Assembly: GCA_023091665.1 (NCBI GenBank)
Contig: JALJCQ010000003.1
Coordinates: 620,001 to 684,000, forward strand
Direction: 5' to 3'
DNA from: Pythium myriotylum
Lineage: Eukaryota > Oomycota > Peronosporomycetes > Pythiales > Pythiaceae
Length of the DNA stretch: 64,000 nt
Shown here: positions 12,001 through 38,721 of the stretch, one piece after another
Layout of the letters: each line of letters starts with the position of its first letter
Position numbering within the stretch: position 1 is the stretch's first letter
Position numbers and translations under genes: made by a program
Notes under the pieces: model-generated
Seen by the model: only the letters and a program-made list of their open reading frames with translations
The model's database searches: none
What the model was told of the DNA's origin: nothing

Positions 12001-14279
12001 CAGAATCCGCATCAGAGGTTCCTGTTCTTAGAGTGATCGACCCACTGCCAGCACCGACGCCGGATGGAGCAGTGGCCAGGATAAGATCACCGCTCGTAGC
12101 GGTCTCACTGGTACCCGATGTCACTAGAACGGTACCGCCTTGTGCGGTCGACCCAGATCCACCAGCAATCGAAATTCTTCCACCGAAGGCTGTACTGTGG
12201 CCTGCATGCACGTCGACGACGCCCCCTAAGCCCTTCGAATGACTGCTGTTACCACCCCCTATCATGATAGAGCCCCCCTCATCCAACGTACTGGCACCCA
12301 CATTAAGACTGACTGATCCACTTGTACCACCCGTCGCACTAGATGTTGAGATAGACACACTGCCAGAGTTGTTTGTCGTCGAAGACCCAGTGAGGAGTTT
12401 GAGCGAACCGCTGACGCCTGAAGATCCCGCCGGAGAGGTGGTAATCGACACCCCGCCACTATCCCCGAACGAGCTACTGCCGCTTCGAACATGTACACTT
12501 CCGCCAGCATTTACTTCTCCCACCCCAGCGAAGAGATTGAGGTCGCCACCCACCGCACTGCCACTGCCACTCTGAACAAAAACGATTCCCGCAGCCTTCT
12601 TCGGATCCGTGGTGTTTCCTGCAGCCACAGTGAGGTGACCTCCTTCACCGAAATCACCGTTACCGACGGCAACATTGATTGCCCCACCAGCACCACCCGA
12701 AGCACTTGATGTCGTGATATCGATCGAACCGCTTGTTGATCCGTTGGAAACACCAGTTGACAAGCGCATCCCTCCTGAAGAGCTCCCAGTGGATTCGCCA
12801 GTAGAAATCTCAATCGAGCCGGATGAGCCATCACCCGCAGCTCCAGATTGGATGAAGTAGCCCCCTGAGTCGGTTAAACTTGCGACAGCAGGCGCAGTAC
12901 TAATCCTGTACGAGCCTGATGTTGATGAATTGGAGCCGCCGGTGGAGATATCAACATCACCACCTTTCTGATACTTGGAGCCACCGCTTCTGAGGACTAT
13001 GGGGGAGCCTTCTTTGTTGTCGTGGCTACCGCTCGACAAGGATAACGACTTCGCCGCCTGGAGGGCAATTTCGTCCACCTCCGAGGTGATTAACGTTGAG
13101 CCGCCAAGTAAATGGAGCCCGGAGCGATCTATTCGAATTCGACTTGTTAGATCACCGTCAGAGGTGGTAGCAATAAGAATCTCCGTCGAGTTGGTGCCGT
13201 CTTTATCTGCGGCGATGGCGCTAAGGCTTGCTGATGCCGAGACCCCGCTTGCACCTTTCACCTCCAATAAAACACCAGTACCGATTCCGTCGATATGTAT
13301 GGGCAGGTCATCGTAAGTTGGGCCAGCGAAGGGTCTATCCAGATAAAACGACGAAGCCGTGATGGAGCGGGTGGGGTCTACTATGTACGATCCACCTGAC
13401 AATCGAACAAACTGGCTCGGTGAGAGGTACGAAGTAAGTTCCTGGGATGTAGTCACCATGTCGCTGCCGAATTCAACTGATACGTTTCCTGGTAGCCGTC
13501 TCGATCTGATGTTGCTGTAGTCAGCGAAGTGTCGAATCTGGAAAGTCGGGTGAGGCGCTGCTGCATCAACTGTGTCGTCTCGAGAGTGCAGCTTGAATCC
13601 TCTAGAGTTGATGGATCCCTGAAACGATGTGTCCTCACTCATCATCATCAAGCTCTTGCGAACCTCAATGCTGTGGCCCTGCATAAGTGGGTGTTGCAGC
13701 CCCTTGTCAATCCAGAGTTCCGTAGAAGTGACTCTGATGATCGTGCGGGCATCTAGCTTGTTGAAGAACGCTACATCCCCAACGTTCACAAATTTTCTGC
13801 CACGGATATACGTCAGGAGTTTCGATATTGATGCACGAGCGCTTACACTAACCTGGCATCGGTTGAAGTCGGCACAACAGTTGCGCCGACGGAGGCACCA
13901 TCTCCACCAACAGAACTGACAGTTCGATAAGACTTGCCCGAGCGAATCGACAATGACGCGGAACCATAGACTGGGTGGTTCTCGATCACGACCTCACCGA
14001 CCATGCGATTATCTGCCCAAAACATAACACTGAGCCAAAGCTCGTCCAATCGAATGGTTCCGCATGCAAATCCCCACCGAACATGAAGGGGTCGTGTGGC
14101 GACGGCATGGAAGGTGTCTTCTGGAGGAGCCGGCGAGTGGCCACTCGCTCTGCGCGCTGCTGCACTTGCTCCTGCGGATGCTGCCCACCAGGTACCGCTG
14201 CTTCACTACCAGAGACATCACCATTCGTAGCCCCACATCGCTGCGCCACGAGCGCCACGACTGCCACCCACAAAGTCAC
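1..14279 (-). CDS. Giant secreted-looking Gly/Ser/Val-rich repeat (beta-solenoid-like) protein, 3' end off the window
   Basis: One minus-strand frame is open from about 13796 to the left edge (over 4,590 codons). It starts with a non-repetitive head of roughly 270 residues (about 13840-13000). After that it is built of 14-19-residue rungs of form [SG]G-x-[IV]-x-[IVL]-x-[ST]-G; eight rungs make a super-repeat of about 125 residues. Such regular Gly/Ser rungs with alternating hydrophobics suggest a beta-solenoid, which is inference. A clear 56-bp intron lies at 13797-13852 (donor AG|GTTAGT, acceptor GGCAG). Upstream, a hydrophobic stretch (TLWVAVVALVAQRCGA, about 14230-14279) resembles a signal peptide, but that frame has no ATG. 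It also lies in a different frame from the following coding piece (about 14150-13853), so at least one more intron is likely; a 50-53 nt GTAGTG...CAG option near 14160-14215 would restore the frame. Likely a surface or wall-associated adhesin-like protein. The exact 5' end and the family are unknown. Confidence 0.8.
51..3234 (-). repeat. In-frame tandem segment, copy A (about 3.18 kb)
   Basis: Matches copy B (4071-7254) with an offset of exactly 4020 bp, a multiple of three, so the coding frame is kept. I noticed only two differences, at 230/4250 and 3227/7247, both synonymous in the minus-strand protein. Flanking DNA diverges abruptly on both sides. Confidence 0.95.
4071..7254 (-). repeat. 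In-frame tandem segment, copy B
   Basis: Nearly identical to copy A, and over 4104-6189 to copy C. Encodes about 1,061 residues of the giant repeat protein. Between copies A and B lie about 840 bp of diverged repeat units of the same protein. Confidence 0.95.
7410..9495 (-). repeat. In-frame tandem segment, copy C (shorter, about 2.09 kb)
   Basis: Matches 4104-6189 of copy B with an offset of 3306 bp, again a multiple of three. The differences I noticed are at 7931 (A versus G) and 9224 (T versus C), both silent. It stops short of the distal third of the larger copies, so the three copies did not arise from one equal duplication event. Confidence 0.95.
13797..13852 (-). other. Intron of the giant repeat gene
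   Basis: Donor AG|GTTAGTGTAAG and acceptor GTGGCAG|A. Removing 56 nt joins a frame that ends in TAA to the 13.8-kb open frame, giving codon AG|A. Confidence 0.8.
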
Positions 14280-18359: not shown

Positions 18360-19271
18360 ATGTACCATCAGCAGCAGCAGCCGCAGTGGAGTGTGTCCTC
18401 TCGCGAGCGCATGGCGCTCCCGCCCATCACGCTCGTCGGCGCCTCCTCGACGCCGCGTAACGCCGAGTACGCGACGCCCATGCACCCGCAGTACGCGCAC
18501 TCGACGCCCGTGATGATGATGCTGCCGCCCGGCCACCGCCCGATGATGGTCTCGCCCTCGGGCGTCGCCATGTCGCCGGCCTTCGCACGATCGCCACTCG
18601 CGTCCTGCAGCCCGTCCATCTCGAAGAAGCGCATCCGCATGATCCCGAACGCGACCAAGTCGATCACGCTCGACTTGCTCCGCCCACACTTTGACCGCCC
18701 TCTCGCCGAGGTCGCGGCCATGTTCGGCATCTGCATGACGCTCATGAAGAAGATCTGCCGCAAGAACGGCGTGCCTCGCTGGCCTCACCGCCAGATCCGC
18801 GGACTCCGCAAGAGCATCTGGTCGATCGAGAAGGCCCTCCGCTCGTGTGAATCGGAGGCTCAGCGCCGATCGTACGTCGAGCACCTTGACAAGCAGCAGG
18901 AGAAGCTCGAGGCCATCCTCCGTGGCCCTGAGGGACCGGGCAAGAGCATGTTCCACGAACTCGTCATGTCTGTGCCGTGCTCGCCAATGAGCGAGCTCGT
19001 CACGCCCAAGGCCTCCTCGAGCTCCATGGACTCGGACAGCCCAATGTGCACGCCTTCGGCTCGCCCCGCTCTCGAGATCCCGACGCCGCAGGCCGCCTCG
19101 AGCCCCAAGACGAGCCCGGCCTTCAAGCCGTCTCCTCGTGTGCATGAGTCAAGCGTGTGCCAGACGCCGACGATCACCCGCCTGCCGTCGATCGCATCCC
19201 TGCTGGCTGTCCACGCCGCCAAGGACCCGCACCAGCGCGTGGCCACGCCAGTGATCACCTTCCAGTGCTAA
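18360..19271 (+). CDS. RWP-RK domain transcription factor, paralogue 1 (303 aa)
   Basis: Single-exon gene, ATG to TAA. The RWP-RK DNA-binding domain spans about residues 100-153: a helical ITLDLLRPHF start, an FGICMTLMKKICRKNG core, and the signature RWPHRQ at 140-145, where the family canon is RWPxRK. A charged, coiled-coil-like helix follows (about 155-195). The N-terminus is Met/Pro/Gln-rich and the C-terminus Ser/Pro-rich, ending near a short LPSIASLL motif found in all three RWP-RK genes here. RWP-RK proteins act in the nucleus; in plants and algae they control nitrogen response and gametogenesis. The role in oomycetes cannot be read from sequence. It is transcribed in the same direction as the other two paralogues. 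Confidence 0.93.
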   Translation: MYHQQQQPQWSVSSRERMALPPITLVGASSTPRNAEYATPMHPQYAHSTPVMMMLPPGHRPMMVSPSGVAMSPAFARSPLASCSPSISKKRIRMIPNATKSITLDLLRPHFDRPLAEVAAMFGICMTLMKKICRKNGVPRWPHRQIRGLRKSIWSIEKALRSCESEAQRRSYVEHLDKQQEKLEAILRGPEGPGKSMFHELVMSVPCSPMSELVTPKASSSSMDSDSPMCTPSARPALEIPTPQAASSPKTSPAFKPSPRVHESSVCQTPTITRLPSIASLLAVHAAKDPHQRVATPVITFQC

Positions 19272-21144: not shown

Positions 21145-23654
21145 AACCTTGTAAGCTAATGCGCCCAGTGCTGCTCAGCATGCTGCTACATGGCATGCCA
21201 CGCCGCATGGCGTCGCAACACAGTCGATTTGCTCCGGATCGCGGTGCACTGTAGTACCCACCACTGCTCTGTACCTCTTGGGAGGTCTCTTCCGATGAGT
21301 ATGCAATCAAGTACGTTTTCGAAGCACAACGTTGAAGGTCGCACTGAATACCAGACTCGGTCAGCTCTTCAGCAAGCATGCACAAGCGAATACGCTCATA
21401 TGTGTGCCAGCCGCAATCGTCGAGTACTACTCGACGAGTACAGTACAAGCTTCGATTGTCTCACAAGCAAAAGACTTCGCGGCCATGTGATCGTGCGGAA
21501 AAATCGGTCGATCACAGTCAGTGCAACTTCCTGTCAATATCAGTGGCATTGGGATGGAGAGTCGTCCGACGCCGCAACCTCACTACACCCAGACCACTGT
21601 GGGCGATACCGTGGCGTTGTCATGCACAGATCTCATGATGGGGAGCCTCCAGGCAACTTGGCGGCGACCCGTGTCCCTCGTCTCTGTGCATCTAGTGGTC
21701 AGTATGCACATCAGCGTGACCGAGTTACTCACCCGCATACGGAACAGGCACAGGCCGCACAGATGCTCACGAAGAAGGTCAACAGTTGTCCGTACATCTT
21801 GGAACTGCTCGGCGTCGACGAAAATGCAGTTCTCAGAACACGAGCAGGGGCATTGCAGTAGCCCGTAGATGAGTTGACAACAGCAGGTGTGACAGCTAGG
21901 AACTGTTGAGAAGAGGGTATCACCAGCCTGGTGATACTATTATCCGGCCGACTCGGGCGGATAATGGTCTTCTGACGTTTGTTCCAGATGGAGATTCTGG
22001 AGCATTTCGAAATGGAGTAATGGAGGAATGCCGACAAGAACGTTCGGATGGTCCAAGAGGAGTGCAGCCGGCTGCACTGACCACAAGACTGTCCATTGGA
22101 GTCTTCCTGGCTTGCAAAGACACCAGCATGGCTTCATCGCCTTGCCGTTCCAAAAACGAGCAAAACCGTCATATCACGGTGGATTTGCAGCGGGTTCATC
22201 CCGAACTGACCAGAAGCGCATCTTCCGCCTCAGCATGGCAAACCCTGGCACAAGGGAGATGCGGGGCACATTTGTTATGGACCTTTCGGGGAAGAAACGA
22301 AGCCGCGACACACGCTGGACGCGTCACCGTAGCGACAACGTACGGACCGTGCGATGACCGCGTTTAGTCTTCGAACAAGACCGAAATTTTTCTCCTCGTG
22401 GTCTTGTTTTCGCAGCGTCCATGGTGCTCCCACACGCATCAACTGCTCACCAACGGATGAACATTTCGCAGCCGTTTGGGCCGTTGGAGGCGAGCAGTAG
22501 GCGCCCGTTCTTCCTGAACAGTAATCACAATCACCAGCAGTCGTGTACATGTTGCAGTGACACAGGAAGAGCTTCTGACCGCAAAACCACATGGACTTTA
22601 AGATGGCCGAACGACTCAACAATCGTCACCCATGGATCTGCTTGACGCTTAGTACAATGGGTAGGTCCTGGCGCATCAGCTGAAGATATTTCTGTCGAGT
22701 CGACACTGTGTCTCGGACTCGACAGTGTGTCTTGGACTCGACAATGGAGCGAGTGCTACTTCCTGCTCTGACTACCTGTCGAGTGTCTCCAAAGCCTCGC
22801 TTTGCACGCGGACTCCTGGGCTTGAGGCGGTTGCCCCAGAACCAGGTGTCCGAGCATTCGTTGAGCACTAGTCACAACGTTTCGACAAACTGAGATACCC
22901 ACACCGGCCATCGGCAAGCTCTTCAGCGCCAGCATCCAGTACCCACCCTCTCCCTTCAACGACGCCCCCTGCAGGGCGAGTCCTCTACAGCATTGCTTTC
23001 CTACTCTCTCAAACAGATTCTCTAGCTAGCCACCAAGACTCGGACCCAGCAGTAAAAACCAGATCGGCAGACGCCGAGTATTGCTGCGCTTGCTTGTGCT
23101 CTACCACCTGAGATGTAAGCGCTTTGGGTGTGAGCGAGCCGGCGCTGACAGAGAGCGTCGCGTGGTCGTTTCTCCAGTCAAAGGAGTCGGAGCTTTTCGA
23201 CGACGTTGAACATGGCGGCTGGATTCTCAGAAGTCCCACTCTGGGCCGAGCCAAGACGACCATGGGGCCCCGTTTCTTTCGCCGCCGCTCGCTCTTCGAC
23301 ATCTCGCTCTCTGTGGAAGAACTCACAACGACGTCCCCTAACAATGTCGCAGTCAGTCGGTCCGTCCGTCGTGGCGCCGCCTTCGTAATACAGAACCGGT
23401 TCGACGCGGCCGTTCCAGTGCCCCCTCTTCCCCCTCACCCGCATCCAGCACTGTCTGTGCAGTAGCAAAAGCTTCGAGCTCACCCGCCACCCGCAAAGAC
23501 GACAGAGACGAGTCGCTTGATCAGTCAGTCAGTCGCTCGGGCCCCGTCAGGTGGTTCTTTCCCCGCTCCTTCACATTCTTACTGTACCTGTTTCCCAAGC
23601 AACGGGTACGGAGACGTCAAGTGACCATCAACGTTTGGTGGTCCCACCTGCACA
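21145..23654. other. Gene-poor 2.5-kb stretch with decayed-looking frames
   Basis: Frames such as 21190-21861 (223 codons, ATG start) look partly protein-like, but overlapping frames compete and none carries a recognisable domain. This may be degenerate mobile-element DNA. It also holds a tandem 19-bp repeat (22697-22751) and a palindrome (ATCACCAGCCTGGTGAT, near 21920). Confidence 0.4.
22697..22751. repeat. Tandem 19-bp repeat, nearly three units
   Basis: Units begin at 22697, 22716 and 22735 and read GA(G/C)TCGACA(C/G)TGTGTCT(C/T)G. Each unit starts with a GACTCGAC-type half-palindrome; the third is truncated and diverged. A related TGTCGAGTGTCT follows near 22778. Confidence 0.8.
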
Positions 23655-23668
23655 GTCTCGCATTTGCC
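23655..23668 (+). promoter_or_regulatory. Core-promoter-like element of the second RWP-RK gene
   Basis: GTCTCGCATTTGCC carries the CATTTGCC flanking element also seen before the third RWP-RK gene. It lies about 40 nt before the ATG at 23708. Confidence 0.4.
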
Positions 23669-23707
23669 GTCTCGTGCACAAGCCGTCCTCTCCTCCCCCG
23701 ACAGTCA

Positions 23708-24988
23708 ATGGCCGTGCAGCACCTCCGCGCGTTCCACATGAGCTCGGCATACCACAGCGACACCAGAAAAGACACGGATCGCCGCGAAGAATTCGGCGCC
23801 GACACCAAACTCCCCGACCAATCGTCCTGGACGCGCTCGCCGTCGTTCACGGGCAAGCGTCCTGCGTTTCCTCAGGGCATCCACGCAGACGAAATGTCCC
23901 CCGCTGCCGACTACCCGAAGCACGACGAGCAACAGCGGCTGTCATACCATGGGCTCGATGCCGTGCTGTCGCCGACGCAGCGCAAGCGCCACCGCGGCGA
24001 CAGCGATATGAGCATGTCGGGCAACGGAGTCGCCTCTCCTCTACCCTACGGCAGCGTGCGGATCACGTCGACTTCGATCCGCGCGCTTGTTCATGACGAC
24101 AGCGCCGATTTCGATGGACGCCAACGTCAGTCAATGACATTCGACGACATGGAATATTCCGGGCGCGACTCGTGGGCGGCATCGTCGTCGCGCGGCTCGG
24201 GCCGCGACAGCGATCTATGGGACCGCAACTCGTCCCCGCACGCCGACGAAGAGCAGGACGACGACTCGTCGCGCGCCTCGATCGGCAACGCGTCGCGCAA
24301 CATTACGTTCTCGATGTTGCAAACGCACTTCAGCAAGCCGCTCAAAGACGCAGCAAACCACTTTGGCGTCTGCACGACGCTGCTGAAGAAGATTTGTCGC
24401 AAGAACGGCATCCTCTCGTGGCCCTACCGCCAGATCATCGGGCTCGAGAAGAGCATCGCGTCCATGGAGCAGCAAGTCCACTACTTCGACGGTGAGCAGC
24501 GGCGACAGTACGCCGACCAGCTCCGTAAGCTACAGATCAAGCTCGACGCGTACATCCGTACGGGCCAGGCCCCCGGAGAGGAGGAGCTCACAGCTGCCCT
24601 CCAAGCTCAGAACGCCGCGGCCCAGCCCGGCTTTTCCTCGGCTCCAGCAAGCCAGAACCCCCAACTCCGCGAGGAGTACTATCAGCCATCCCAACAGGGA
24701 TATTACTACCCTCCACAAGGCAGCGTCATGGCGTCAGCCGTTACACTCGACGCCGAGGAGCCAAAGGCGCACTTTCCCCCCCACGCTAGCTCGTCAATGT
24801 ATCCAGAGCAGGCTTACGACCAGCGATATGGCGCGTACCCAGCCGCGCCTGCGTTCTCGCAGCGGCCGCTTCCATCGCTCGCGTCCCTTCTCAACCCAGC
24901 GTCCCAGCCACAGCCGCCTCATACCGGCTACTCCGGAGGCGAGCTTCGGCGGGACGACTACCCTTACGACCATCAATGGCGTAGCTAG
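23708..24988 (+). CDS. RWP-RK domain transcription factor, paralogue 2 (426 aa)
   Basis: Single exon. The open frame continues upstream, but the first ATG is at 23708, just after a core-promoter-like element, so I start there. The RWP-RK domain spans about residues 198-250: an ITFSMLQTHF helix, an FGVCTTLLKKICRKNG core, then SWPYRQ at 237-242 (Arg to Ser and Lys to Gln relative to RWPxRK). A charged helix follows (EKSIASMEQQVHYF and beyond, about 247-290). The long C-terminus is Gln/Tyr/Pro-rich and ends close to an LPSLASLLNP motif. The N-terminal third is Ser/Asp-rich with basic patches (RKRHRG) that could serve nuclear import. Its core is close to those of the other two paralogues, but the flanks differ. 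Confidence 0.92.
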   Translation: MAVQHLRAFHMSSAYHSDTRKDTDRREEFGADTKLPDQSSWTRSPSFTGKRPAFPQGIHADEMSPAADYPKHDEQQRLSYHGLDAVLSPTQRKRHRGDSDMSMSGNGVASPLPYGSVRITSTSIRALVHDDSADFDGRQRQSMTFDDMEYSGRDSWAASSSRGSGRDSDLWDRNSSPHADEEQDDDSSRASIGNASRNITFSMLQTHFSKPLKDAANHFGVCTTLLKKICRKNGILSWPYRQIIGLEKSIASMEQQVHYFDGEQRRQYADQLRKLQIKLDAYIRTGQAPGEEELTAALQAQNAAAQPGFSSAPASQNPQLREEYYQPSQQGYYYPPQGSVMASAVTLDAEEPKAHFPPHASSSMYPEQAYDQRYGAYPAAPAFSQRPLPSLASLLNPASQPQPPHTGYSGGELRRDDYPYDHQWRS

Positions 24989-27900: not shown

Positions 27901-28231
27901 ATGCCCGTGGCATGAACCCCCCAACGTCGAGGCAGGCTCGACAACCTCCCAAAGCAAAAGGCCGACGCGAGAGAAGAGGCTTCCCTCCCTCCCCAGTCGT
28001 TTGCGTCGACACCCAGAACGCGCCCCGTTTCTGCGCGCCAGAGACAAGGAAAACAAGCACCAAGGCAAGAGTGGGACACCTCGCCCCGGCTCTAGCCGCT
28101 TGCCATGGTGTACCCCGAGCCCTGGGCCCTAATCCCCGTCCGCTGGCCCGACCGAGGCGGCGGGTGGCAACTCATGTCGGGGGCGACGGGACAACAGGGC
28201 TCACCTCGCCCAAAGGCGAATGGCTCCCGTC
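24989..28231. other. Gene-poor 3.2-kb stretch
   Basis: No frame here has a recognisable domain, and the longer ones are random in composition. An A-rich run follows the RWP-RK stop (near 25008) and a 14-base G tract lies at 27411-27424. I see no tRNA-like fold or terminal repeats. Confidence 0.45.
27411..27424 (+). repeat. G14 homopolymer tract
   Basis: Fourteen consecutive G residues in otherwise mixed sequence. Length is likely variable or uncertain in assembly. Confidence 0.9.
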
Positions 28232-28247
28232 TTCACTTCGGCATTTG
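28232..28247 (+). promoter_or_regulatory. Oomycete initiator plus flanking element of the third RWP-RK gene
   Basis: TTCACTTCGGCATTTG contains TCACTTC (initiator-like) and GCATTTG (flanking promoter region-like). It ends 29 nt before the ATG at 28276 and is the reason I prefer that start over the in-frame ATG at 28105. Confidence 0.5.
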
Positions 28248-28275
28248 CCTTCTTCCGCCTCGCCTCCGATCCGCC

Positions 28276-29241
28276 ATGGGAGTCCAGCCGCGTGCGTTCT
28301 CTGTGCCCTCCGACCAGCAGGGCTCGCCGTCGTCCTCGCCGGCCTCGCGCAAGCGCCGCTTCATGGACGTCGTGCTCCTCAAGGACGACGAGCAGCAGCA
28401 GCTCACGCAGCGCGTCACGTTCAAGCGCTCCAAGTCGGGCGAGGCCGAGCTCCACGTCCAGGTGCGCGCGGCCTCGCCGTCCAGAGACTCGGAGTCGCTC
28501 GAGCCCGTGACGCCCACGGGCCGCATGTCGGACGTCGACGACAAGACCAGCCCGAGCGCCAAGAACACGGCGCGCCCCAACATGTCGGCCTCGCAGACCA
28601 TCACGCTCGACATGCTTCGCCCGCACTTTGAAAAGCCGCTCGCGCAGGTCGCACAGGTCTTTGGCATCTGCGTCACGCTGCTCAAGAAGATCTGCCGCAA
28701 GAACGGCCTCGCGCGGTGGCCGCACCGCCAGATCATTGGGCTCCGCAAGAGCATCGCCTCCATGGAGCAGGCCATCGGCCACTTCGAAGGAGCTCGCCGG
28801 GAATCCTACGCCCAGCAGCTCGAGAAGCAACGCAACAAGCTCACGGCTCTGCTGGAAGACCCGACCAAGTGCAACCTCCTCGCCGTGGACGACGAGTACC
28901 TCCCTCCCCACCCAGCTCAGGTGGAGGCCGTGCGTGCCCCGGCGGCGTCGCACATGCCGAGCCATGCTCCGTACTACGCCGGCTACGCTCCCGTGGCCGC
29001 CCCAGTGTACGACCGCTCGTACGCGTCCTACCCGGAGTATTACCAGGCGGCTCCTGCGATGCCGCCACACCACCCAGTGTCCTACGCGCCTCAGCACTAT
29101 TACCCACCGACGCAGCCCGCCTACACGCACCACGCCGCGCACGTGGCGCAGCCGCCCACGTCAGTGATGCTGCCGCCGCTTCGCATGGACACTCGCCCGG
29201 CGCTGCCGTCTCTCTCCTCGGTCGTGGGGCGTCGATGGTAG
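28276..29241 (+). CDS. RWP-RK domain transcription factor, paralogue 3 (321 aa)
   Basis: Single exon. An in-frame ATG at 28105 would add 57 residues, but the ATG at 28276 (CCGCCATGG context) follows a core promoter element by 29 nt. The RWP-RK domain spans about residues 107-160: ITLDMLRPHF, then FGICVTLLKKICRKNG, then RWPHRQ at 147-152. It is clearly closer to paralogue 1 (same RWPHRQ, LRPHF, GLRKSI) than to paralogue 2. A charged helix follows (about 160-195). The C-terminus is rich in His, Pro, Tyr and Ala and ends LPSLSSVVGRRW, a variant of the shared C-terminal motif. Probably a nuclear DNA-binding regulator; targets unknown. Confidence 0.92.
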   Translation: MGVQPRAFSVPSDQQGSPSSSPASRKRRFMDVVLLKDDEQQQLTQRVTFKRSKSGEAELHVQVRAASPSRDSESLEPVTPTGRMSDVDDKTSPSAKNTARPNMSASQTITLDMLRPHFEKPLAQVAQVFGICVTLLKKICRKNGLARWPHRQIIGLRKSIASMEQAIGHFEGARRESYAQQLEKQRNKLTALLEDPTKCNLLAVDDEYLPPHPAQVEAVRAPAASHMPSHAPYYAGYAPVAAPVYDRSYASYPEYYQAAPAMPPHHPVSYAPQHYYPPTQPAYTHHAAHVAQPPTSVMLPPLRMDTRPALPSLSSVVGRRW

Positions 29242-30536: not shown

Positions 30537-33500
30537 ATGAGCGACTTCGTGGGCTTCACGTCGCCGCGCCCGCCGCCGCCGGCCTCGTCCGCGACGCTCA
30601 CGGCGTTTGCGCCGCCGTCCGACGAGCAGACCGTGATCCAGATCCCCGAAAGCGCCCCTCGGGGCAGCGGCATCGGCCACGGCGTCGACGTGTCGCCGCC
30701 CGCGATGATCGAGGAGGCCGCCACGCCGACGCCCATTCTGCGCGACGAGAGCGGCTCCATGGGGAACAACCAGGGCGGCGTCACGACTGTCCACGGCAAA
30801 CTCGGCCACAAAGTCCCGTCCTACCGCAACTTGAGCCTCGGACCGAACAACGTGAGCCTCTCGTCGCCGCTGCTGGGCCGCGAGCCGCCCGTGCCGCGCG
30901 TCTTCCTCAGCTACGCGTATGCGAACAACTCGTTCTTCGCGCGGCGGTTGCTGCGCGTCTCGGCCGTGCTCGCCAGCGTCATGGCCGCCGGCGTCACGAT
31001 CTACTACTCGTACAGACCCGCGAGCATCGTGCTCAACCCGGAATTCCCGGAGAACCACGGCTTCTTCCTGCACGACCCGGGCGCGGTCTACACGCTGCAG
31101 GCGACACCGTGCGAAAACATGGTCGGCTTCTCGGCCCTCGTGTACCACGCGGTGGTCGTTGTCGTTTTGCTCGGCATGCCCGGCACAGGACTCCGCGCGT
31201 TTGAGCCTTTCAAGCGCCAGCCACAGCGAGATGAAGAAGGCAACTTGAACAAGATCAAGCGCACGCTCGTCTTCCAGTTCTGCGAACTGCTGGCCGTGGG
31301 CGTGCTGGCGTTTGCGATGATTGTGTTCGTGTTCTTCTGGTACATGTTCTTCAACGGCGCAGCCTTCTCCTGCGATAAGTATCGCGTCCACGTTTTCTCA
31401 CTATTTGCGCTCATTTGTTATGGCGGCATATTCGTGCAGCTCGTCTACTTTGCGCGATATCGGGAGCACATTAAAATGCAATTAGGAGCTTTTTCTGAAA
31501 GTGACCAGACAGGCAATGTGAGAAAACATCTCTTCGACCCAGTTGCTGCCGAGTTGATGACCAAGGATAATCAAGTCATCGCATTGATCCAGAAGCGGCT
31601 GTACAAAGCGACGTCTTTGGGCGACTTAAGAGAGATGCGCACAGTTTTGGAGGTTGCTAGGACCAAGAAATTGGATGAAAAAGGATTCCCGATGAAGTAC
31701 TATGGTAACGCCAAGATCTACTTCAAGTGTTTCGGCCATTCAAAGAAGAACCCAGTCCATGTCGCCGCGTTCAACGGTAACATTGAAGCTCTCGAACTGC
31801 TACGTTCTTACGGATTTGAGGTGAATACCCTTGACAAGTTCCATCGCGTGAGATTCAGCACAGGCGACCTGTTTTTGTATTTTGCCCATTACTTGGTGTC
31901 GAAGCCTGTGCCTTCCGGTGATGATGATGCGGTTTCAATTTTCAAGACGACGCTTGTGACCCCGTTGCATTGTGCTGTTCTTACTGGTCAACTGGAGGCT
32001 GTACGGTGGTTGATTGCTCACGGAGCTGAAGTAGGCACGATGGCACAGTCGTCATATCGCTCCGAACGTATCCCACCCATCTTCTATGCTGAAACTCCCG
32101 CAGTTGTTCGCGAACTTCTCGAGAATGGCGCCAACCATTTGGTGATCCCAGACCCTGGCTACATGAACACCCTTACTGCACTCCAACTAGCGTATTTACG
32201 GGGCAACTATTCTGTGGCGTCTGAATTGGAGGAATGGGGCTGTGACGTGGCACTGACACCGTTCCATTCGGCGGCTGCTACGAACAACACCTCAGCTGTT
32301 CGCAACTTTATTCGACGTGGAACAAACGTCGACTGCTTGGGTGAGCATGGCTACGTTGGAATGAACAGGCGCACTCCTTTGCATTGGGCAGCTATTAGCG
32401 GGGCAGTAGAAACCGTGGAGTTGCTGTTGGAGGCGGGTGCTGAGCCTAACTTCCAGGATGCACGCGGACGTACACCATTGCACTGGGCTGCAAGACTCAA
32501 TAAGCTTGCCATCGTGAAGAGTTTGGTGGCGAAGGGTGGTTTACCTAACGTCACTGACATCGACCAGATGACGCCACTCATGTGCGCGGCGAATGCGAAG
32601 AGGGCGACTCGAGAGCTGTTCTCTGTCCTTGTTGAGGCCGGCGCCGACATTAACTACCAGTTGCCTACGACAGGAGATACAGCTCTCCACATGGCCGTGC
32701 GCGAAGAGAACGAAGAGTCTGCACTCGCTCTTCTCGCATGTGGCGGGAACATCATGAAGGTTAATGCGGATGGTTTGCGCCCCTTGGACTGCTCAACAGA
32801 CACGAAGCTTTTGTTTGCCATTAAGCGAGCTGCTGGTCATCGCGACGTCATGATCAGCTACACTCACTCACACGCCGAATTTGCGAAGAAACTGCGGAAG
32901 TCTTTGGAAGACTCCAATGTAACGACGTGGTTGGATCTCATGGACCCAAGTGGAATTGGCGGCGGCTCGGTGTGGCGCGAAGAAATTGCTCGGGGCATCA
33001 CGAACGCTGCTCTTGTGGTGTGTATCTTGACTGAGGATTATGCTCAGTCGGAGTGGTGTCTGAAGGAACTTGCGCTTGCAAAGCAAGTTGGAACCCCTAT
33101 CATCGCTGTATCTACGGAAGGTGTCCGCATTGGAGAAGAACTTCAAGTGTACTTGTATACGCGTCAAATCATTCCGTTTGAGCCGGCGATCACAGAAACC
33201 AAACGCAACGCGCAGAACTCGCGCCAGATTGAGTATGAGTACATCGAATCCAAGTACAAGTCCCAGTTCAACCTACTGCTCGACGGAGTTCGCGACGAAA
33301 TTGAGAAGCGTCGAAACGAAATTGTGAGCAAGAGTCGGGCCAAAGCAAATGCTTCGATGCTCAATGCCTCCATGATCTCAACAGGATTCTCAAAGATGTT
33401 TCAGCCATGGGATGCTCCCGGGGCTCAATACGTATTCATCTCACACGGTGATCGCCATTCTCACTTCGTTCATCGCATGTGCCAAGAACTGAAGACTCGC

Positions 33501-34256
33501 GACATCCAGTTCTACGGAGATCGTAATGTCGAAGGACAGACCTTCGATGAGCGCATCCATTTAGCAAAGGAGGCCATCCTTAAGTGCACGTGCTTCATTG
33601 TGATATTGTCGAAAGACACGATGAGCAGCGAGATTGTTCGCGACCAACTCGCCTTCGCCGAAGATAAGGGGCGCCCCATTTTCCCAGTTGTCTTGAATGA
33701 GGTCGCGATTGGGTTTGACAAGCGGTACTCGCTCGCACGCACCGAATTCTACCACTTCTTGTCAGACGGTTTCGCATTTACGTCGAGCTTCAATTCACTG
33801 ATCACTGGTCTCAAGCGCCACTACGATGTTGACAGGAAGCAACCAAGCAGCTCAACTCGCCCACCGAGCTCAAACAGTACGAACTTCACCAACACATCGT
33901 TCGCGAATGCCTCATTCATCAGTGACAGTTCGTTTTCCTCTTTCCTTCATGTGGATCCACCAGTAGCGTCAGGAACGATGATGTCATCAGCTCATAGCTC
34001 ATTCATTAGCGATGATTCAGACGGCGACCCGGTCATAGGCAAGCGAACTCCATACCTACCCGATCGACAGAATTCGCATAACACTTTGATTGGCGAACGC
34101 TCGGCGTCGGTCATTCTTGAAGGCGAGGAGCCCGACCGGGAGTCGTCGCGCGAGGGCGGGCACACGATGGAGCGGGTCGACTCTATTCGAAACCTGGATT
34201 CGTTGTCGTCGCTCGGAGCTGAGGATCGCGAACACATCGATCTCGTTCGAATGTAA
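30537..34256 (+). CDS. Membrane-anchored ankyrin repeat protein with two TIR domains (1,239 aa)
   Basis: Single exon, ATG to TAA. Order: Pro-rich N-terminus (1-115); four hydrophobic helices (about 139-158, 194-215, 243-270, 283-305); ankyrin repeats (about 404-765, with several TPLHWAA/TPLHCAV blocks, clearest at 615-760); first TIR domain (about 767-905, DVMISYTHS start); second TIR (about 962-1095, QYVFISHGD start); Ser/Asn-rich tail. The first TIR keeps the WCxxE motif (W840, C841, E844), whose Glu is the catalytic residue of NAD-cleaving TIRs such as SARM1. The second lacks Trp-Cys and has Gln at the matching site (Q1037). This suggests one active and one regulatory TIR, facing the cytosol. 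A role in NAD-based signalling or cell death is inference. The gene is convergent with the LRR/EF-hand gene, with 90 bp between the stops. Confidence 0.9.
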   Translation: MSDFVGFTSPRPPPPASSATLTAFAPPSDEQTVIQIPESAPRGSGIGHGVDVSPPAMIEEAATPTPILRDESGSMGNNQGGVTTVHGKLGHKVPSYRNLSLGPNNVSLSSPLLGREPPVPRVFLSYAYANNSFFARRLLRVSAVLASVMAAGVTIYYSYRPASIVLNPEFPENHGFFLHDPGAVYTLQATPCENMVGFSALVYHAVVVVVLLGMPGTGLRAFEPFKRQPQRDEEGNLNKIKRTLVFQFCELLAVGVLAFAMIVFVFFWYMFFNGAAFSCDKYRVHVFSLFALICYGGIFVQLVYFARYREHIKMQLGAFSESDQTGNVRKHLFDPVAAELMTKDNQVIALIQKRLYKATSLGDLREMRTVLEVARTKKLDEKGFPMKYYGNAKIYFKCFGHSKKNPVHVAAFNGNIEALELLRSYGFEVNTLDKFHRVRFSTGDLFLYFAHYLVSKPVPSGDDDAVSIFKTTLVTPLHCAVLTGQLEAVRWLIAHGAEVGTMAQSSYRSERIPPIFYAETPAVVRELLENGANHLVIPDPGYMNTLTALQLAYLRGNYSVASELEEWGCDVALTPFHSAAATNNTSAVRNFIRRGTNVDCLGEHGYVGMNRRTPLHWAAISGAVETVELLLEAGAEPNFQDARGRTPLHWAARLNKLAIVKSLVAKGGLPNVTDIDQMTPLMCAANAKRATRELFSVLVEAGADINYQLPTTGDTALHMAVREENEESALALLACGGNIMKVNADGLRPLDCSTDTKLLFAIKRAAGHRDVMISYTHSHAEFAKKLRKSLEDSNVTTWLDLMDPSGIGGGSVWREEIARGITNAALVVCILTEDYAQSEWCLKELALAKQVGTPIIAVSTEGVRIGEELQVYLYTRQIIPFEPAITETKRNAQNSRQIEYEYIESKYKSQFNLLLDGVRDEIEKRRNEIVSKSRAKANASMLNASMISTGFSKMFQPWDAPGAQYVFISHGDRHSHFVHRMCQELKTRDIQFYGDRNVEGQTFDERIHLAKEAILKCTCFIVILSKDTMSSEIVRDQLAFAEDKGRPIFPVVLNEVAIGFDKRYSLARTEFYHFLSDGFAFTSSFNSLITGLKRHYDVDRKQPSSSTRPPSSNSTNFTNTSFANASFISDSSFSSFLHVDPPVASGTMMSSAHSSFISDDSDGDPVIGKRTPYLPDRQNSHNTLIGERSASVILEGEEPDRESSREGGHTMERVDSIRNLDSLSSLGAEDREHIDLVRM

Positions 34257-34346: not shown

Positions 34347-37300
34347 CTACGTTACCTCGCCCGGTGTCGCTTTCCGTTTCATCATAGAAAGCGAGTCAAC
34401 GTGGAGCTCGATCTGGCGGAGTTCGTCGTCAGGTGGAAGGCCACAAAGTGTGGTGCTCGCAAGTTCGCGCCGTGACGGCCACACTGGGCCACACCCTTTG
34501 TCGGCACCAGAGTAGTATTCTAGGCACAGGTACCCTTTCTCTGGGAAGCCGCCATCCTTGAGCCATGATAGATTCAGCTCCCACCCTGGGATGAGCTCGT
34601 CGCGGGACCAGCCGAAGGTCTCTCGCTGCCAGTTCTCTCCTGGCTCGTCAATAGCAAGTCGCACAAGTGCCTTCGCGACTTCACGCTCTTCGTACAACGA
34701 AAGGTGCAGCTCGTAGTAGTTGTCCACATTCAGTGGGCACCAGACGTTGAGCCACCCAAGACGATAAAAGCATTGCGCAGCCTCGAACTCGCTCAGCAGG
34801 GATATCACGCCATCGAAGTTGTACAAGTCGAGGAGGCGATCGAAAATGACACAGACAGCTTCCATCCGAGTCGCTTCGAATGCTCTTGGCCACAACGTCA
34901 GCAGCCGCACCGCCTGATGGGCCGTTAACCAGCGAGTTGCCAGATACCACTGCAAGTTGAAGAGTAGCCGCCTCGCTGTTGTTGTCTCCTTGCCGTTGCG
35001 CGTGATAACGAGTGGCTCATCCGAGTCTGTCTGCTCCTGTCGCGTCCGCCGCCTCGAATTTGAATCATCGCCGGCAGCTTCTTCGTCCACCTCATCTTCC
35101 TCCGCATGAGTATCCTCACGCTCACTGGCTTTGGCTGGCTTTATCTCGGCGACAGTGTTCAGGCCTTCACCGAACTTGACATAATTTTTGATGTTCTTCA
35201 TATTATCAAACTCGAAGAAAAGCGAGGGCGTGTTGGGGATTCGAAGGGGAAATTGCGAGATTTTCTTTTGCGGCGGAGCTACGCTCGGCTTTCGGTCACG
35301 CGAACCTTGGAGCTGCGGGGTTGCACGTTTTTCAGGGCTAACAGACGACGTGCGACGCCCGGGAGAGGAGGGCACGTCACGTACACCGATACTTGGAGTC
35401 ATTTGCTCCAACTGCAAATTTCTCAAAAGCTGCTCGAACCTCTTGCTCGACATGGCCTGTGCAGGTGGAGACCGACCGATCTGCGTGTAGTCAAACTCAA
35501 GCATCCCGAACTTTGGCATCGTGTCAAGAAACCGAGGCTCTAAGACGAGGGGCTTGCCGTTAAATGTTTCGTTGCGGAAGCCGTGATAGTTAGCGTGCTG
35601 GCTCGTATCCTTCAGCCCCGACTTTTTTCGTAGAAATGCCGTGCGGTTGCTGTTCTCAACGAGCTTCTTTAGTGTGAGGCGGTCAAGATCGTTGCCCAAG
35701 TCAATCTTGTAATGACCGGTGCCTAGCCCCAGCATGGGCTGCAACGCCGGGCCCATCAAGTGCTGGAGGCGCACGCGCTGGGCAGTCGTGAGGTTGTGGT
35801 CGATCAGCATAAACGCGCTCTTCGGGTCCACCATGTTGGGCAGCAAGATGCTGACAGCTTGGGTAATCTCGAACACGTCGCTTACTGTATCCAGCAAAAG
35901 CTGGGCTTCAGCTGCGCGAAAGTATAGCCCCGACTTGGCCATCTCAAGCATCTGTGATTTGTTTTTGCTGTTGGAGATGTTCTCAATGAGTCGCTCGACG
36001 CCCGCCTGCGAGTGCGCGTTGTCGTTATCGGCTGAAACGTGAAAATCGATGAACTCTAAGTTGAGGATGCCTTCAGTGGGGATCTCGAACGGTTGGTTTG
36101 TCTCAATGTCGTACACCTGGCGAGAAAAATGGTCACCCGACTCGAGATTGAAGCCACTCATCAGCTCAATGAACTCATCCAGCTCGATCGTACCGGTTCC
36201 ATCGAGGTCGTACTGTGCGATGCAACGAGATATATCTTCGTCGCGGAGTCCGCGATTTGTCAGCAACCCGAGCTTCTGCATACCACGCTTGAGTTCTTTC
36301 TCGTCAATGAAGCCCGAGTTATCCTGATCTAGCTCCTGGAACAACGCTGCAAGTGAATCGCGATCGAGTTGGTACATTTTCAGCTCCTCCTCGTCAGCGT
36401 GTGGGTCTGTAAGGATGCCTGCGGTCTTAAGTAGCCTGCGCCGCGCGTCAGCCGTGTCACTCTCACGCAGCTCTACTTTAATGTTTCGCTTCTGCTTTGT
36501 CGTTGGGGATGAGTGGACGATCGAGAGGAATTTGCAGCCTTGTCGCGTGTTGGCCACGCGCAACAACTCCAGTGCAATTGCGCGTTCGTAAGGGATTGCC
36601 ATGTTGAGCTCGTAAGTTCCCGTGCTCTCGCTTGGGTCGAACGCGTCAGCTTCGGACAAATCAAAATTGCAGCTCTCCATTGAGACTTGCAGTTGGCGAT
36701 CCGTGCACGCAGCGACAGCATGCAGCAATGAACGCCCACCAGTCGACCCCAAGGGATTGCCATCCAGGTTCAGGAGCAACATCGCGCTGTTGGTTTTGAG
36801 CGCACATGCGATGGCCTGAGCTCCGTGGGCCGGGATGTTGTTGTTGCTCAAGTTGAGTTTGGCGAGTGTTGTGTTGGACATGAGAGACTCGCCGATGGCC
36901 TGCGCGCCGCTGTCACCGAATGCGTTGAACGCCAAGTTGAGCTCGCGGATGCCGTTGTTATAGGCGAGTGCGCGACCGATCTCGACGGCGCCGCCGAGCC
37001 GCAGATAATTCCACGACAGATCAAGGAAGGTGAGTGTGTAGTTGATGCTGATCATGGTTGCGAGCGCCTCGCCGCCCGTGACGATCGAAGGCTGCACGAC
37101 ATTGAGGTTCTCGGTGTTGCCGATGAGGTTTCGCGACATGTCGAGCGTCTGCAGAGACTTGTTGGAGTGCAGCGCCTTGGCGAACGGCGCCAGCTCACCG
37201 TCATCAACATCTGCGTTACTCAAACGCAATGTCTGTAGCATGCACTTTGGCGCCGCCAAGTACGCAGCAAGCGAAGCAGACGCGTCGCCGTCGACTTTGT

Positions 37301-38222
37301 TCTCGGAAAGATCGAGATGGAAGAGGTCTTTCTTGGCGATGACGACGTCGATGATCGCTTGCAGCCCGCGATCTCCGAGACGGTTGTTCCGCACGTTGAG
37401 TCCTGTCACCATGGGGAGGTCCAAGAGACACTCAGCAAAAACGGTCGCGAGATCGTCGCCGATCGACATCTGCGAGACGTTGATCTCGGGAGAGAAGTAG
37501 TTGCGCATTATCAAGCGGATACACGGGGGCAAGTCTTTCTCGAGACAGAGCGACGAGAACTTGTGGCGCGCCGTAAACTGGCGCGTGAACAGGCCCTTCC
37601 GGTCCTGCTCCAATCGCGTGTGATGGAACTCGCTGCCCACACTCACCAGTTGGGGTACCTCTGGCGATGCAGCTGCCTCGCCTTGCGCAGGCGTTGCCGA
37701 CCGGCTGCCAAGCGCGGCGCGCTGCTCCTCGTCTCGCTGCTGCTGATCGTGGAGAAACTGGTTGAGTGGCATCGAGACGAGGTACTTTTGCATGGCGAGC
37801 TTGCGGAAGATGGCGTGGCACTCGGAGCGTGCGCCGAGGCCAAAGTACTTTGCCTTGACCTCGGGCGTCATCATCGACCGCTGCGACTGCTGCCTCGTGG
37901 GATGCGGCGTGCCGACTTCAAAGAGCATGGCCTCGGACTCGGCCGCCACGGGCAGCGGGAGTTTGGTGAGGCGCAAAAACTTGTCGGCGGGCGACTCTTT
38001 CTCGCTGCGGCGGATGCGCGCCAGGTAGGGCAGGTTGCGCTTGAGCTCCTTGTCGATCTCCCAGTGCTTGTTGAGCCGCGAGATGTCCCACACGTCGTGC
38101 TCGTCGTCATTGTTTGGTGGACTACTGACGTGCGTGTGCGGTTGCCAGGGCGAAGCAGCGACGCTTTTCAGACGCGTCGAGGGCTCGCGATCGCTGGCTT
38201 GGCGACGCGAGCGCGCCTGCAT
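34347..38222 (-). CDS. Leucine-rich repeat and EF-hand protein (1,291 aa)
   Basis: Uninterrupted frame. It stays open 20 codons further upstream, but the first ATG is at 38222. A charged N-terminal region comes first (1-255). Ribonuclease-inhibitor-type leucine-rich repeats follow (about 255-500; units such as LFHLDLSENKVD, LTFLDLSWNYL, IRELNLAFNAFGDSGAQAI). Two canonical EF-hand loops are at about 630-641 (DQDNSGFIDEKE) and 672-683 (DLDGTGTIELDE), and an unrecognised C-terminal part of about 600 residues follows. The latter has an acidic stretch (about 1060) and a conserved-looking helical block (about 1110-1200, LLTLWPRAFEATRMEAV onward). No signal peptide or membrane segment. It is probably a calcium-responsive scaffold; a flagellar or cytoskeletal role would be a guess. 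The promoter region is shared with the divergent PDZ gene. Confidence 0.87.
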   Translation of the reverse strand: MQARSRRQASDREPSTRLKSVAASPWQPHTHVSSPPNNDDEHDVWDISRLNKHWEIDKELKRNLPYLARIRRSEKESPADKFLRLTKLPLPVAAESEAMLFEVGTPHPTRQQSQRSMMTPEVKAKYFGLGARSECHAIFRKLAMQKYLVSMPLNQFLHDQQQRDEEQRAALGSRSATPAQGEAAASPEVPQLVSVGSEFHHTRLEQDRKGLFTRQFTARHKFSSLCLEKDLPPCIRLIMRNYFSPEINVSQMSIGDDLATVFAECLLDLPMVTGLNVRNNRLGDRGLQAIIDVVIAKKDLFHLDLSENKVDGDASASLAAYLAAPKCMLQTLRLSNADVDDGELAPFAKALHSNKSLQTLDMSRNLIGNTENLNVVQPSIVTGGEALATMISINYTLTFLDLSWNYLRLGGAVEIGRALAYNNGIRELNLAFNAFGDSGAQAIGESLMSNTTLAKLNLSNNNIPAHGAQAIACALKTNSAMLLLNLDGNPLGSTGGRSLLHAVAACTDRQLQVSMESCNFDLSEADAFDPSESTGTYELNMAIPYERAIALELLRVANTRQGCKFLSIVHSSPTTKQKRNIKVELRESDTADARRRLLKTAGILTDPHADEEELKMYQLDRDSLAALFQELDQDNSGFIDEKELKRGMQKLGLLTNRGLRDEDISRCIAQYDLDGTGTIELDEFIELMSGFNLESGDHFSRQVYDIETNQPFEIPTEGILNLEFIDFHVSADNDNAHSQAGVERLIENISNSKNKSQMLEMAKSGLYFRAAEAQLLLDTVSDVFEITQAVSILLPNMVDPKSAFMLIDHNLTTAQRVRLQHLMGPALQPMLGLGTGHYKIDLGNDLDRLTLKKLVENSNRTAFLRKKSGLKDTSQHANYHGFRNETFNGKPLVLEPRFLDTMPKFGMLEFDYTQIGRSPPAQAMSSKRFEQLLRNLQLEQMTPSIGVRDVPSSPGRRTSSVSPEKRATPQLQGSRDRKPSVAPPQKKISQFPLRIPNTPSLFFEFDNMKNIKNYVKFGEGLNTVAEIKPAKASEREDTHAEEDEVDEEAAGDDSNSRRRTRQEQTDSDEPLVITRNGKETTTARRLLFNLQWYLATRWLTAHQAVRLLTLWPRAFEATRMEAVCVIFDRLLDLYNFDGVISLLSEFEAAQCFYRLGWLNVWCPLNVDNYYELHLSLYEEREVAKALVRLAIDEPGENWQRETFGWSRDELIPGWELNLSWLKDGGFPEKGYLCLEYYSGADKGCGPVWPSRRELASTTLCGLPPDDELRQIELHVDSLSMMKRKATPGEVT

Positions 38223-38721
38223 AGTGGCGTGGGGGGCACCGGAGGCGAACGGAGCTCGCGAGGAGCTATATTTTGCCCCCACTTCAAGTGACCATCACTC
38301 TCGGCGAGAAAGTCCATCCAAGCGCAAGAGGTGGTTTTGCTTCGTCGTGTTGGTCAGCTGATTCGTAATTTATCCGTAACTTTCCGTCTTTTCGTGACAG
38401 CTGGCGTGACCGCCTGTCGAGCGACTTAGAGTTAGACCGAGAACCAGTTCGGTCTAAAGGCGCGTCTAAACACCGCCTGCTGCCCGTCCACAACTCGCCC
38501 CCTGCGGAGAACGGGTTTTCCTCTTCCAAGGACGAGCGCGTTCTCCGCTGCCGACTTACGGTATCTCGCCTTCTTGCCGTGGCGAGTCGCGTGAGTGGAC
38601 CTTCCTGGTTCGCGGTTCAACCAAATCGCGCGCCCCGGTTTTGTGCCGCGGGCGTAACGATTCTACCCGGTTTTGTTTGGGGATGCGGGTCGTGGGTCCC
38701 TCGCTTTTGGAACCGCGTGAT

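Follow-up and report, generated by a model that had tools for sequence, protein, structure and literature searches.

A predicted membrane-anchored oomycete ankyrin protein pairing a catalytic-looking TIR domain with a second TIR domain whose catalytic Glu position is occupied by Gln

Across bacteria, plants and animals alike, TIR NADases act as drivers of immunity and cell death, and several of the systems so far described share one or more features with the oomycete protein considered here (papers are cited below by PMC number, in most cases for the portion of their text available). Closest in architecture are the oomycete ankyrin repeat-TIR proteins, to which one sentence is devoted in the available part of PMC9153377, and through which this architecture class is already known in oomycetes. 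They combine ankyrin repeats with TIR, as does the present protein, and probably belong to the same family, but in that part of the review no membrane helices, second TIR, particular residues or function are stated for them. Oomycete ankyrin-TIR proteins are not mentioned in the available portions of PMC2939053, PMC13142454, PMC12223298, PMC6647872, PMC5322657, PMC12162218, PMC10732462, PMC9815663 or PMC7282519, and in the literature searched, as far as its available text extends, no characterised oomycete TIR NADase was found. The word “ankyrin” is absent from the main text of the preprint PMC13142454, the atlas of eukaryotic TIRs in which may nonetheless include the present family. Two further entries may or may not concern it, namely a nitrated “TRP-CC” protein, PITG_05737, listed in PMC6647872, and the “ankyrin repeat-containing transporters” of zoospore membranes in PMC12223298.

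Of solved sequences, the nearest to both TIR domains (E 1.6e-6 for the first, TIR1, and 0.012 for the second, TIR2) is that of Cat1 (PDB 9mud), a CRISPR-associated TIR NADase of the bacterial CARF-TIR type that works as filaments (PMC12162218). Cat1 and TIR1 have in common the WCxxE motif, the pocket Asp and both pocket Ser residues (PMC12162218), but the CARF domain fused to TIR in Cat1 has no match in the present protein, a Pfam scan of which (E up to 1) yielded no ARM, SAM, NB-ARC, LRR, CARF or Ion_trans match. It thereby differs from SARM1, which has the order ARM-SAM-TIR with just one TIR (PMC7282519, PMC9153377 and general knowledge), from plant TNLs, where NB-ARC and LRR follow the TIR, and from Toll-like receptors, which have extracellular LRRs and one membrane helix where this protein has four hydrophobic segments. 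In the plant pair RPS4/RRS1, a TIR having the catalytic Glu is likewise paired with one lacking it (PMC7282519); these are however two separate NLR proteins, whereas the present protein joins both TIRs in one predicted membrane-anchored polypeptide and has Gln where the Glu is lost. Dictyostelium offers two partial likenesses (PMC13142454, preprint): TirC, whose N terminus bears a transmembrane helix and which is a eukaryotic NADase, and TirE, which has two diverged tandem TIRs but also RCC1 repeats.

The window, i.e. the whole stretch of 64,000 nucleotides of Pythium myriotylum DNA that was analysed, contains at 30537..34256 a single uninterrupted ORF of 1239 residues with an ATG start; this and all features below lie on the forward (+) strand. 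ORF analysis, Pfam and homolog searching identify its product as a 4TM-ankyrin-TIR1-TIR2 protein. The start codon is supported by P0002 of Pythium oligandrum, the best-scoring named homolog among the matches listed (67% identity over 91%), since its N terminus (MSDFVGF..) resembles that of the window's protein (MADFVGL..). An earlier note on this DNA had described one 1,239-residue protein with four membrane helices, ankyrins and two TIRs, a description upheld by the ORF, hydropathy, an AF2 model and Pfam; the combination was there called unusual, but it is not a one-off, being found among many oomycetes and in six paralogs in this genome. Both termini are variable among 102 near-complete proteins, which are what is left of 121 aligned rows after removal of 19 incomplete ones and comprise 101 homologs besides the protein of the window, the mean majority fraction being 0.22 for the N-terminal tail (residues 1-115; 30537..30881) and 0.19 for the Ser-rich C-terminal tail (residues 1093-1239; 33813..34253).

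Hydropathy gives four hydrophobic segments, at residues 138-156, 192-219, 242-279 and 284-307, and the corresponding membrane helices of the AF2 model span residues 133-158 (30933..31010), 191-216 (31107..31184), 244-272 (31266..31352) and 282-315 (31380..31481), with pLDDT by 10-residue block lying for the most part at 94-98 but at 79-89 where some of the helices end. Three positions here are nearly or wholly constant among the near-complete proteins: Cys192, at the predicted outer end of helix 2 (Cys in 100 of 102), Glu250 in helix 3 (102/102) and Cys279, directly N-terminal to helix 4 (102/102). The four helices are predicted to anchor the chain in the membrane with both protein ends cytosolic, the ankyrin array and both TIRs hanging into the cytosol. 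As sole query, the membrane domain found eight matches, all oomycete-named; among solved folds it has no convincing match, the four-helix folds of tetraspanin and TARP having been considered.

The ankyrin array (residues 404-739; 31746..32753) is firmly recognised by Pfam (Ank, E 1.3e-42, seven stretches), and eight repeats, some of them weak, are detectable; to call the array long, as had been done, is fair, though its length is moderate. Its likeness to TRPA1 chains, together with the source names of homologs P0006, P0007, P0024 and P0043, might be taken to indicate a calcium channel of the TRP type, a name that several database records bear (among the matches listed, some are called ion channel and one an effector candidate). 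This reading can be given almost no credence, and we rejected the label: there is no Ion_trans match in Pfam at E up to 1, the TRPA1 matches have their best stretches within query residues 393-739, and the four helices precede the ankyrins where TRPA1 has six membrane helices following them. Foldseek with the membrane domain model matched nothing within an E limit of 0.001, which would not by itself exclude a channel.

TIR1 (residues 769-905; 32841..33251) is predicted to be catalytic on the strength of Pfam, the AF2 model, fold searching and conservation. Pfam TIR_2 matches the full protein in two stretches (E 9.3e-31, 107.3 bits), the TIR domains show the TIR fold, and the fold of TIR1 matches NADase TIRs among others. 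The predicted catalytic residue, Glu844 (33066..33068), is the Glu of the motif W840-C-L-K-E844; its column holds Glu in all 117 of the 121 aligned rows that have the column and in 102/102 near-complete proteins, which bears out the earlier observation that the first TIR keeps the WCxxE Glu. Seven columns of TIR1 correspond to the NADase pocket of Cat1, and none of them varies among the 102 proteins; four carry the residue of Cat1 (S, D, S, E) and the other three differ from it. The BB loop (residues 800-814; 32934..32978) is poorly predicted by AF2 (block pLDDT 54) and is of constant length in 102/102 proteins, which is consistent with activity needing TIR-TIR clustering. In the model the end of TIR1 is continued into the linker by a long helix (residues 904-942; 33246..33362). 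A membrane-tethered protein with a catalytic-looking TIR1 is therefore well supported at the level of sequence and predicted structure, and to this extent the membrane-tethered NADase proposed in the earlier note finds backing, in the invariant Glu, Cys and pocket columns and the NADase-like fold. The sensing or inhibitory part that the note gave to the ankyrin array, and a role of the protein in stress or cell death, are conjectures that may apply.

It might be supposed that both TIRs serve assembly only, as in MyD88 or Mal, and that the conserved pocket is simply an assembly surface: MyD88 does occur among the profile matches of TIR1 (E about 0.015) and among the fold matches, and TIR2 already lacks the Glu. 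Such a non-enzymatic scaffold is decidedly unlikely, however, as the invariance in 102/102 proteins of Asp800, Ser838 and the AA loop, besides the Glu and Cys841, seems to go beyond the needs of an adaptor, and the mammalian TIR adaptors examined showed no NADase activity (review PMC9153377). Cys841, adjacent to W840, bears also on the substrate, since a Cys near the catalytic Glu is important for the formation of 2',3'-cNMPs reported for plant TIRs (PMC9153377), and TIR1 could conceivably act likewise on nucleic acid, instead of or besides acting on NAD+. The plant activity needs in addition an extended alphaD region, where the AF2 model has just a short helix (residues 867-870), and the same WCxxE motif occurs in Cat1, a reported NADase (PMC12162218), making the cNMP proposal highly unlikely.

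TIR2 (residues 963-1092; 33423..33812), delimited by the AF2 model, fold searching, hhalign and Pfam, exceeds the TIR_2 cut-off by itself (42.8 bits against 28). A single-sequence search with it found no PDB sequence match at E up to 10. In the hhalign alignment Gln1037 (33645..33647) stands opposite E844, and since Gln thus takes the place of the catalytic Glu, TIR2 is predicted to be non-catalytic and should not cleave. TIR2 is less conserved than TIR1, yet Gln1037 belongs to the six of its 130 columns that do not vary, and the pairing of Glu in TIR1 with Gln in TIR2 occurs in 102/102 near-complete proteins. Such a pair within one chain suggests a putative built-in enzyme and regulator. No mention of the pairing in oomycete ankyrin-TIR proteins was found in the available text of the literature searched. 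The earlier note took the two TIRs as a pair and did not record the missing Glu of TIR2.

On balance probable, though barely so, is a membrane-tethered TIR enzyme (TIR1) with a non-catalytic partner (TIR2) in the same chain, resembling a fused RPS4/RRS1. In clustered copies the BB loop of one TIR1 would close the pocket of another TIR1, whereupon E844 would cleave NAD+ or NADP+, or a related nucleotide, as the conservation of the pocket and the established chemistry of TIRs suggest; TIR2, by comparison with RPS4/RRS1, would have been retained for binding or assembly, serving to restrain or align TIR1; and some signal received by the membrane domain or by the ankyrins might, at a guess, release TIR1. 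The prediction is a sharp one, that a catalytic TIR is permanently joined in one chain to another with Gln for Glu, and if it is true a single polypeptide would show the effect of a non-catalytic TIR on a catalytic one, an open question in plant paired receptors (PMC7282519).

The BB loop of TIR2 bears on whether TIR2 might instead complete the TIR1 pocket, supplying the second-TIR side of a composite active site within one chain. TIR NADase sites do form between two TIRs (PMC9153377, PMC12162218), and TIR1 and TIR2 are tethered in cis (their relative placement is uncertain in the AF2 model, pTM 0.50). Against this, across all 102 proteins the TIR2 loop ranges from 8 to 56 residues with a mean majority fraction of 0.45, whereas that of TIR1 is fixed in length, the long loops being confined to the long paralogs and found in 25 of the 26. 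The argument that this loop is too variable for the TIR1 pocket is nevertheless weak for the window's own group, because 29 of its 31 proteins have a loop of 10 residues (mean majority fraction 0.77, close to the 0.81 of TIR2 as a whole); this near-constancy slightly raises the composite site, which we still regard as unlikely, and slightly lowers the favoured reading of an enzyme with a non-catalytic partner in the same chain. A further possibility, unlikely though with a real chance of being right, is that TIR2, though dead as an enzyme, can still bind NAD+ or a related metabolite through its Gln-bearing pocket and so gates the neighbouring TIR1 according to that metabolite, the whole being an ancient membrane-tethered alarm enzyme of oomycetes predating the split of Saprolegniales and Peronosporales; one fold would then have furnished, within a single chain, both the enzyme and its substrate sensor.

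Oomycetes include major crop and fish pathogens. The homolog search gave 307 matches, and among the best 120, which were listed, all those with an organism name are oomycete; among these the family is present in both main oomycete branches, which we take to be Saprolegniales and Peronosporales. Searches of viral_contigs and genome_contigs by tblastn, each via two peptide patterns, found no relatives, and none were found in phages; a plasmid search gave one weak match, in Bernardetia (33%, with 29% of the query covered), and PADLOC and NCBIfam gave weak TIR matches only, those of NCBIfam being below cut-offs. SLOG is a possible ADPR sensor; a search of the genome with LSDAT_euk (SLOG) gave no match and is uninformative, as the controls also matched nowhere. 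With the TIR pair as query there were 44 short matches, which might be taken for standalone soluble tandem-TIR proteins; this was rejected, many being regarded as cut gene models, since seven start inside the TIR1 BB loop and 13 end within 80 residues past the Glu. Their E844 column holds Glu in 34, a gap in nine and Ser in P0164 (a short, misaligned match), while their Q1037 column is Gln in 26 and gapped in 17, with Thr in P0136 (a misaligned model end). The tree, rooted on a single Achlya sequence and used, with support values left aside, for paralog groups only, does not as so rooted give monophyletic Saprolegniales. Two divergent paralogs in the Pythium myriotylum genome bend the pattern of Glu in TIR1 and Gln in TIR2: C30 has lost the Trp, BB loop and AA loop of TIR1 while retaining the Glu, and in C9 TIR2 is too diverged for the Gln to be placed firmly.

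The gene at 30537..34256 (+ strand) is a single open frame of 1,239 residues, in which Pfam finds ankyrin repeats (eight are detectable, over residues 404-739) and two TIR_2 stretches, the second of which exceeds the curated TIR_2 cut-off by itself. The earlier note had described a 1,239-residue protein with membrane helices, ankyrins, two TIR domains and a glutamate, E844, in the first of these (TIR1, residues 769-905), and the open frame, Pfam, hydropathy and an AF2 model all confirm this; its reading of the protein as an NADase sensor is partly supported, in that sequence and fold, the sole basis here for a TIR enzyme, predict a catalytic TIR1. The existence of homologues, among them P0001 (66% identity over 100%), P0002 (67% over 91%) and P0006 (71% over 80%), excludes a random open frame. 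A whole-protein search with an E-value limit of 1e-10 matched 307 proteins; among the 120 of these that were listed, all of which were used and every one of which was retrieved through similarity to the window protein, those records that name an organism are all oomycete (Pythium, Globisporangium, Phytophthora, Nothophytophthora, downy mildews, Albugo, Saprolegnia, Achlya, Thraustotheca and Aphanomyces), the remainder giving no organism. Some homologue records (P0006, P0007, P0020, P0024 and P0101) are misleadingly named: TRP Ca2 channel, RxLR effector candidate, mitochondrial chaperone BCS1-B.

The feature most worth following is the fixed pairing of a predicted catalytic TIR with a Gln-substituted one. 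When the window protein is aligned with the 120 homologues (121 rows), all 117 rows that fill the E844 column have Glu there, the other 4 being gapped; in the column of Q1037, in the second TIR (TIR2, residues 963-1092), 116 rows carry Gln, 4 are gapped and a single one, P0112, carries Glu, in a row where the column lands on the final residues of a short gene model. Keeping only rows that cover >90% of TIR1, >70% of TIR2 and >70% of the membrane part leaves 102 proteins, namely the window protein and 101 homologues (19 being dropped, and six Saprolegniales and three Albugo being included), and in these E844, C841 and Q1037 are each present in 102/102; after thinning to <80% identity, where the two most divergent sequences share 44%, Glu and Gln are each found in 34/34. 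Invariant columns number 41/137 in TIR1 and 6/130 in TIR2, Q1037 being one of the six. E844 and Q1037 were paired by aligning the TIR1 and TIR2 profiles with each other (probability 94.7), and the AF2 model agrees, each residue occupying position six of the corresponding helix. Since only 120 of the 307 matches were inspected, all similar to the window protein, more distant members of the family may depart from this pattern.

Among solved sequences, both TIRs are closest to the CRISPR-associated NADase Cat1, whose site is reported to be lined by S7, H8, N9, N10, D33, S68 and E74 of one TIR, together with K121 and Y122 from another (PMC12162218). Equivalents were counted along the printed Cat1 alignments, which end before K121 and Y122, and the TIR1-TIR2 alignment. 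For TIR1 the seven are S774, Y775, T776, H777, D800, S838 and E844, each found in 102/102, and four of the seven are identical to those of Cat1. In TIR2 the corresponding counts (out of 102) are S969 77, H970 100, G971 98, D972 94, D995 99, S1031 73 and Q1037 102, implying that much of the pocket is retained without the catalytic acid. Adaptor TIRs such as MyD88 are also among the matches, so that the fold alone is no proof of activity. In plants, according to PMC7282519, some 90% of TIRs keep the catalytic Glu, those without it appear to derive from sensor-type receptors, and RRS1 lacks it; in Dictyostelium, according to PMC13142454, TirC is an NADase that carries a transmembrane helix, and TirE has tandem TIRs. 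In the open-access literature, mostly surveyed short of full text, nothing was found on the membrane helices, second TIR or Gln of the oomycete family.

TIR NADase sites are reported to form between two TIRs, one of which extends its BB loop to the other (PMC9153377). The TIR1 BB loop is nearly invariant, with constant length in 102/102 and a mean majority fraction of 0.96; that of TIR2 is poorly conserved across the 102 proteins (8 to 56 residues; 0.45). Most of this spread in length comes from long paralogues, 25/26 proteins of >=1,400 residues having loops of 33-56, and the TIR2 loop is 10 residues in 67/76 proteins of <1,400 residues. Within the window protein's own group of 31 it is 10 residues in 29/31, with a mean majority fraction of 0.77 (TIR1 loop, 0.97). 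The relative placement of the two TIRs is poorly fixed in the AF2 model (pTM 0.50). Assembly of TIR1 with TIR1 across chains, in which TIR2 would act as a scaffold or hold TIR1 back, is preferred to an active site shared by TIR1 and TIR2, but the preference is only a mild one.

Four membrane helices, near residues 133-158, 191-216, 244-272 and 282-315, are predicted both by hydropathy and by a confident AF2 model. The N-terminal flank, the helix 2-3 loop and the C-terminal flank are richer in positive charge than the two remaining loops, a distribution that predicts a cytosolic location for both ends and the ankyrin-TIR part, and this would put C192 (present in 100/102) and C279 (102/102) on the outer side, where they could form a disulfide. 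E250 (102/102) lies in helix 3, close to where its inner end is predicted. A structure search with the membrane-domain model gave no convincing match to a solved fold.

In the P. myriotylum genome (58.7 Mb, 55 contigs; the window is C3:620001-684000) the family has at least six members: the window gene (C3:650.5 kb), two longer paralogues <55 kb from it (L009 and L010, at about 695 and 701 kb on C3, with open frames of 1,652 and 1,602 aa), and one each on contigs C12, C9 and C30. In other oomycetes, too, contig sizes and gene numbers suggest that similar pairs of a short and a long member sit on one contig. The Glu is present in 6/6 of the P. myriotylum paralogues and the Gln is clear in 5/6; the C9 and C30 copies, both outside the 102, count against the reading of a catalytic TIR paired with a Gln-substituted one. 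In the C9 copy TIR1 looks normal and TIR2 is so diverged that its Gln aligns weakly (probability 33); the C30 copy (L013) keeps the TIR1-position Glu and the TIR2 Gln but has lost the Trp and the BB-loop and AA-loop motifs, and is possibly a non-catalytic partner. TIR_2 matches occur at 13 places, counted as eight genes, of which six are the family; the others, unlike it, are a 727-aa open frame at C15:820493 (L018) and a weak TIR at C31:900239-900520 (L023) with an NPHP3_N/AAA-type ATPase after it, an arrangement that resembles an NLR within an oomycete genome.

Upstream of the ankyrin-TIR gene lie three ORFs with RWP-RK domains (18360-19271, 23621-24988 and 28105-29241, all +). A P. insidiosum gene model, P0011, joins an RWP-RK domain (PF02042) to an ankyrin-TIR protein, which suggests that this neighbourhood is conserved. 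Tail to tail with the ankyrin-TIR gene is a 1,311-aa ORF with LRR and EF-hand domains (34347-38282, -). A Gly/Ser-rich open frame of 4,596 aa at 2-13789 (-) has zero Pfam matches at E up to 5; it contains a 300-nt stretch three times, at 98-100% identity and with spacings of 4,020 and 3,306 bases.
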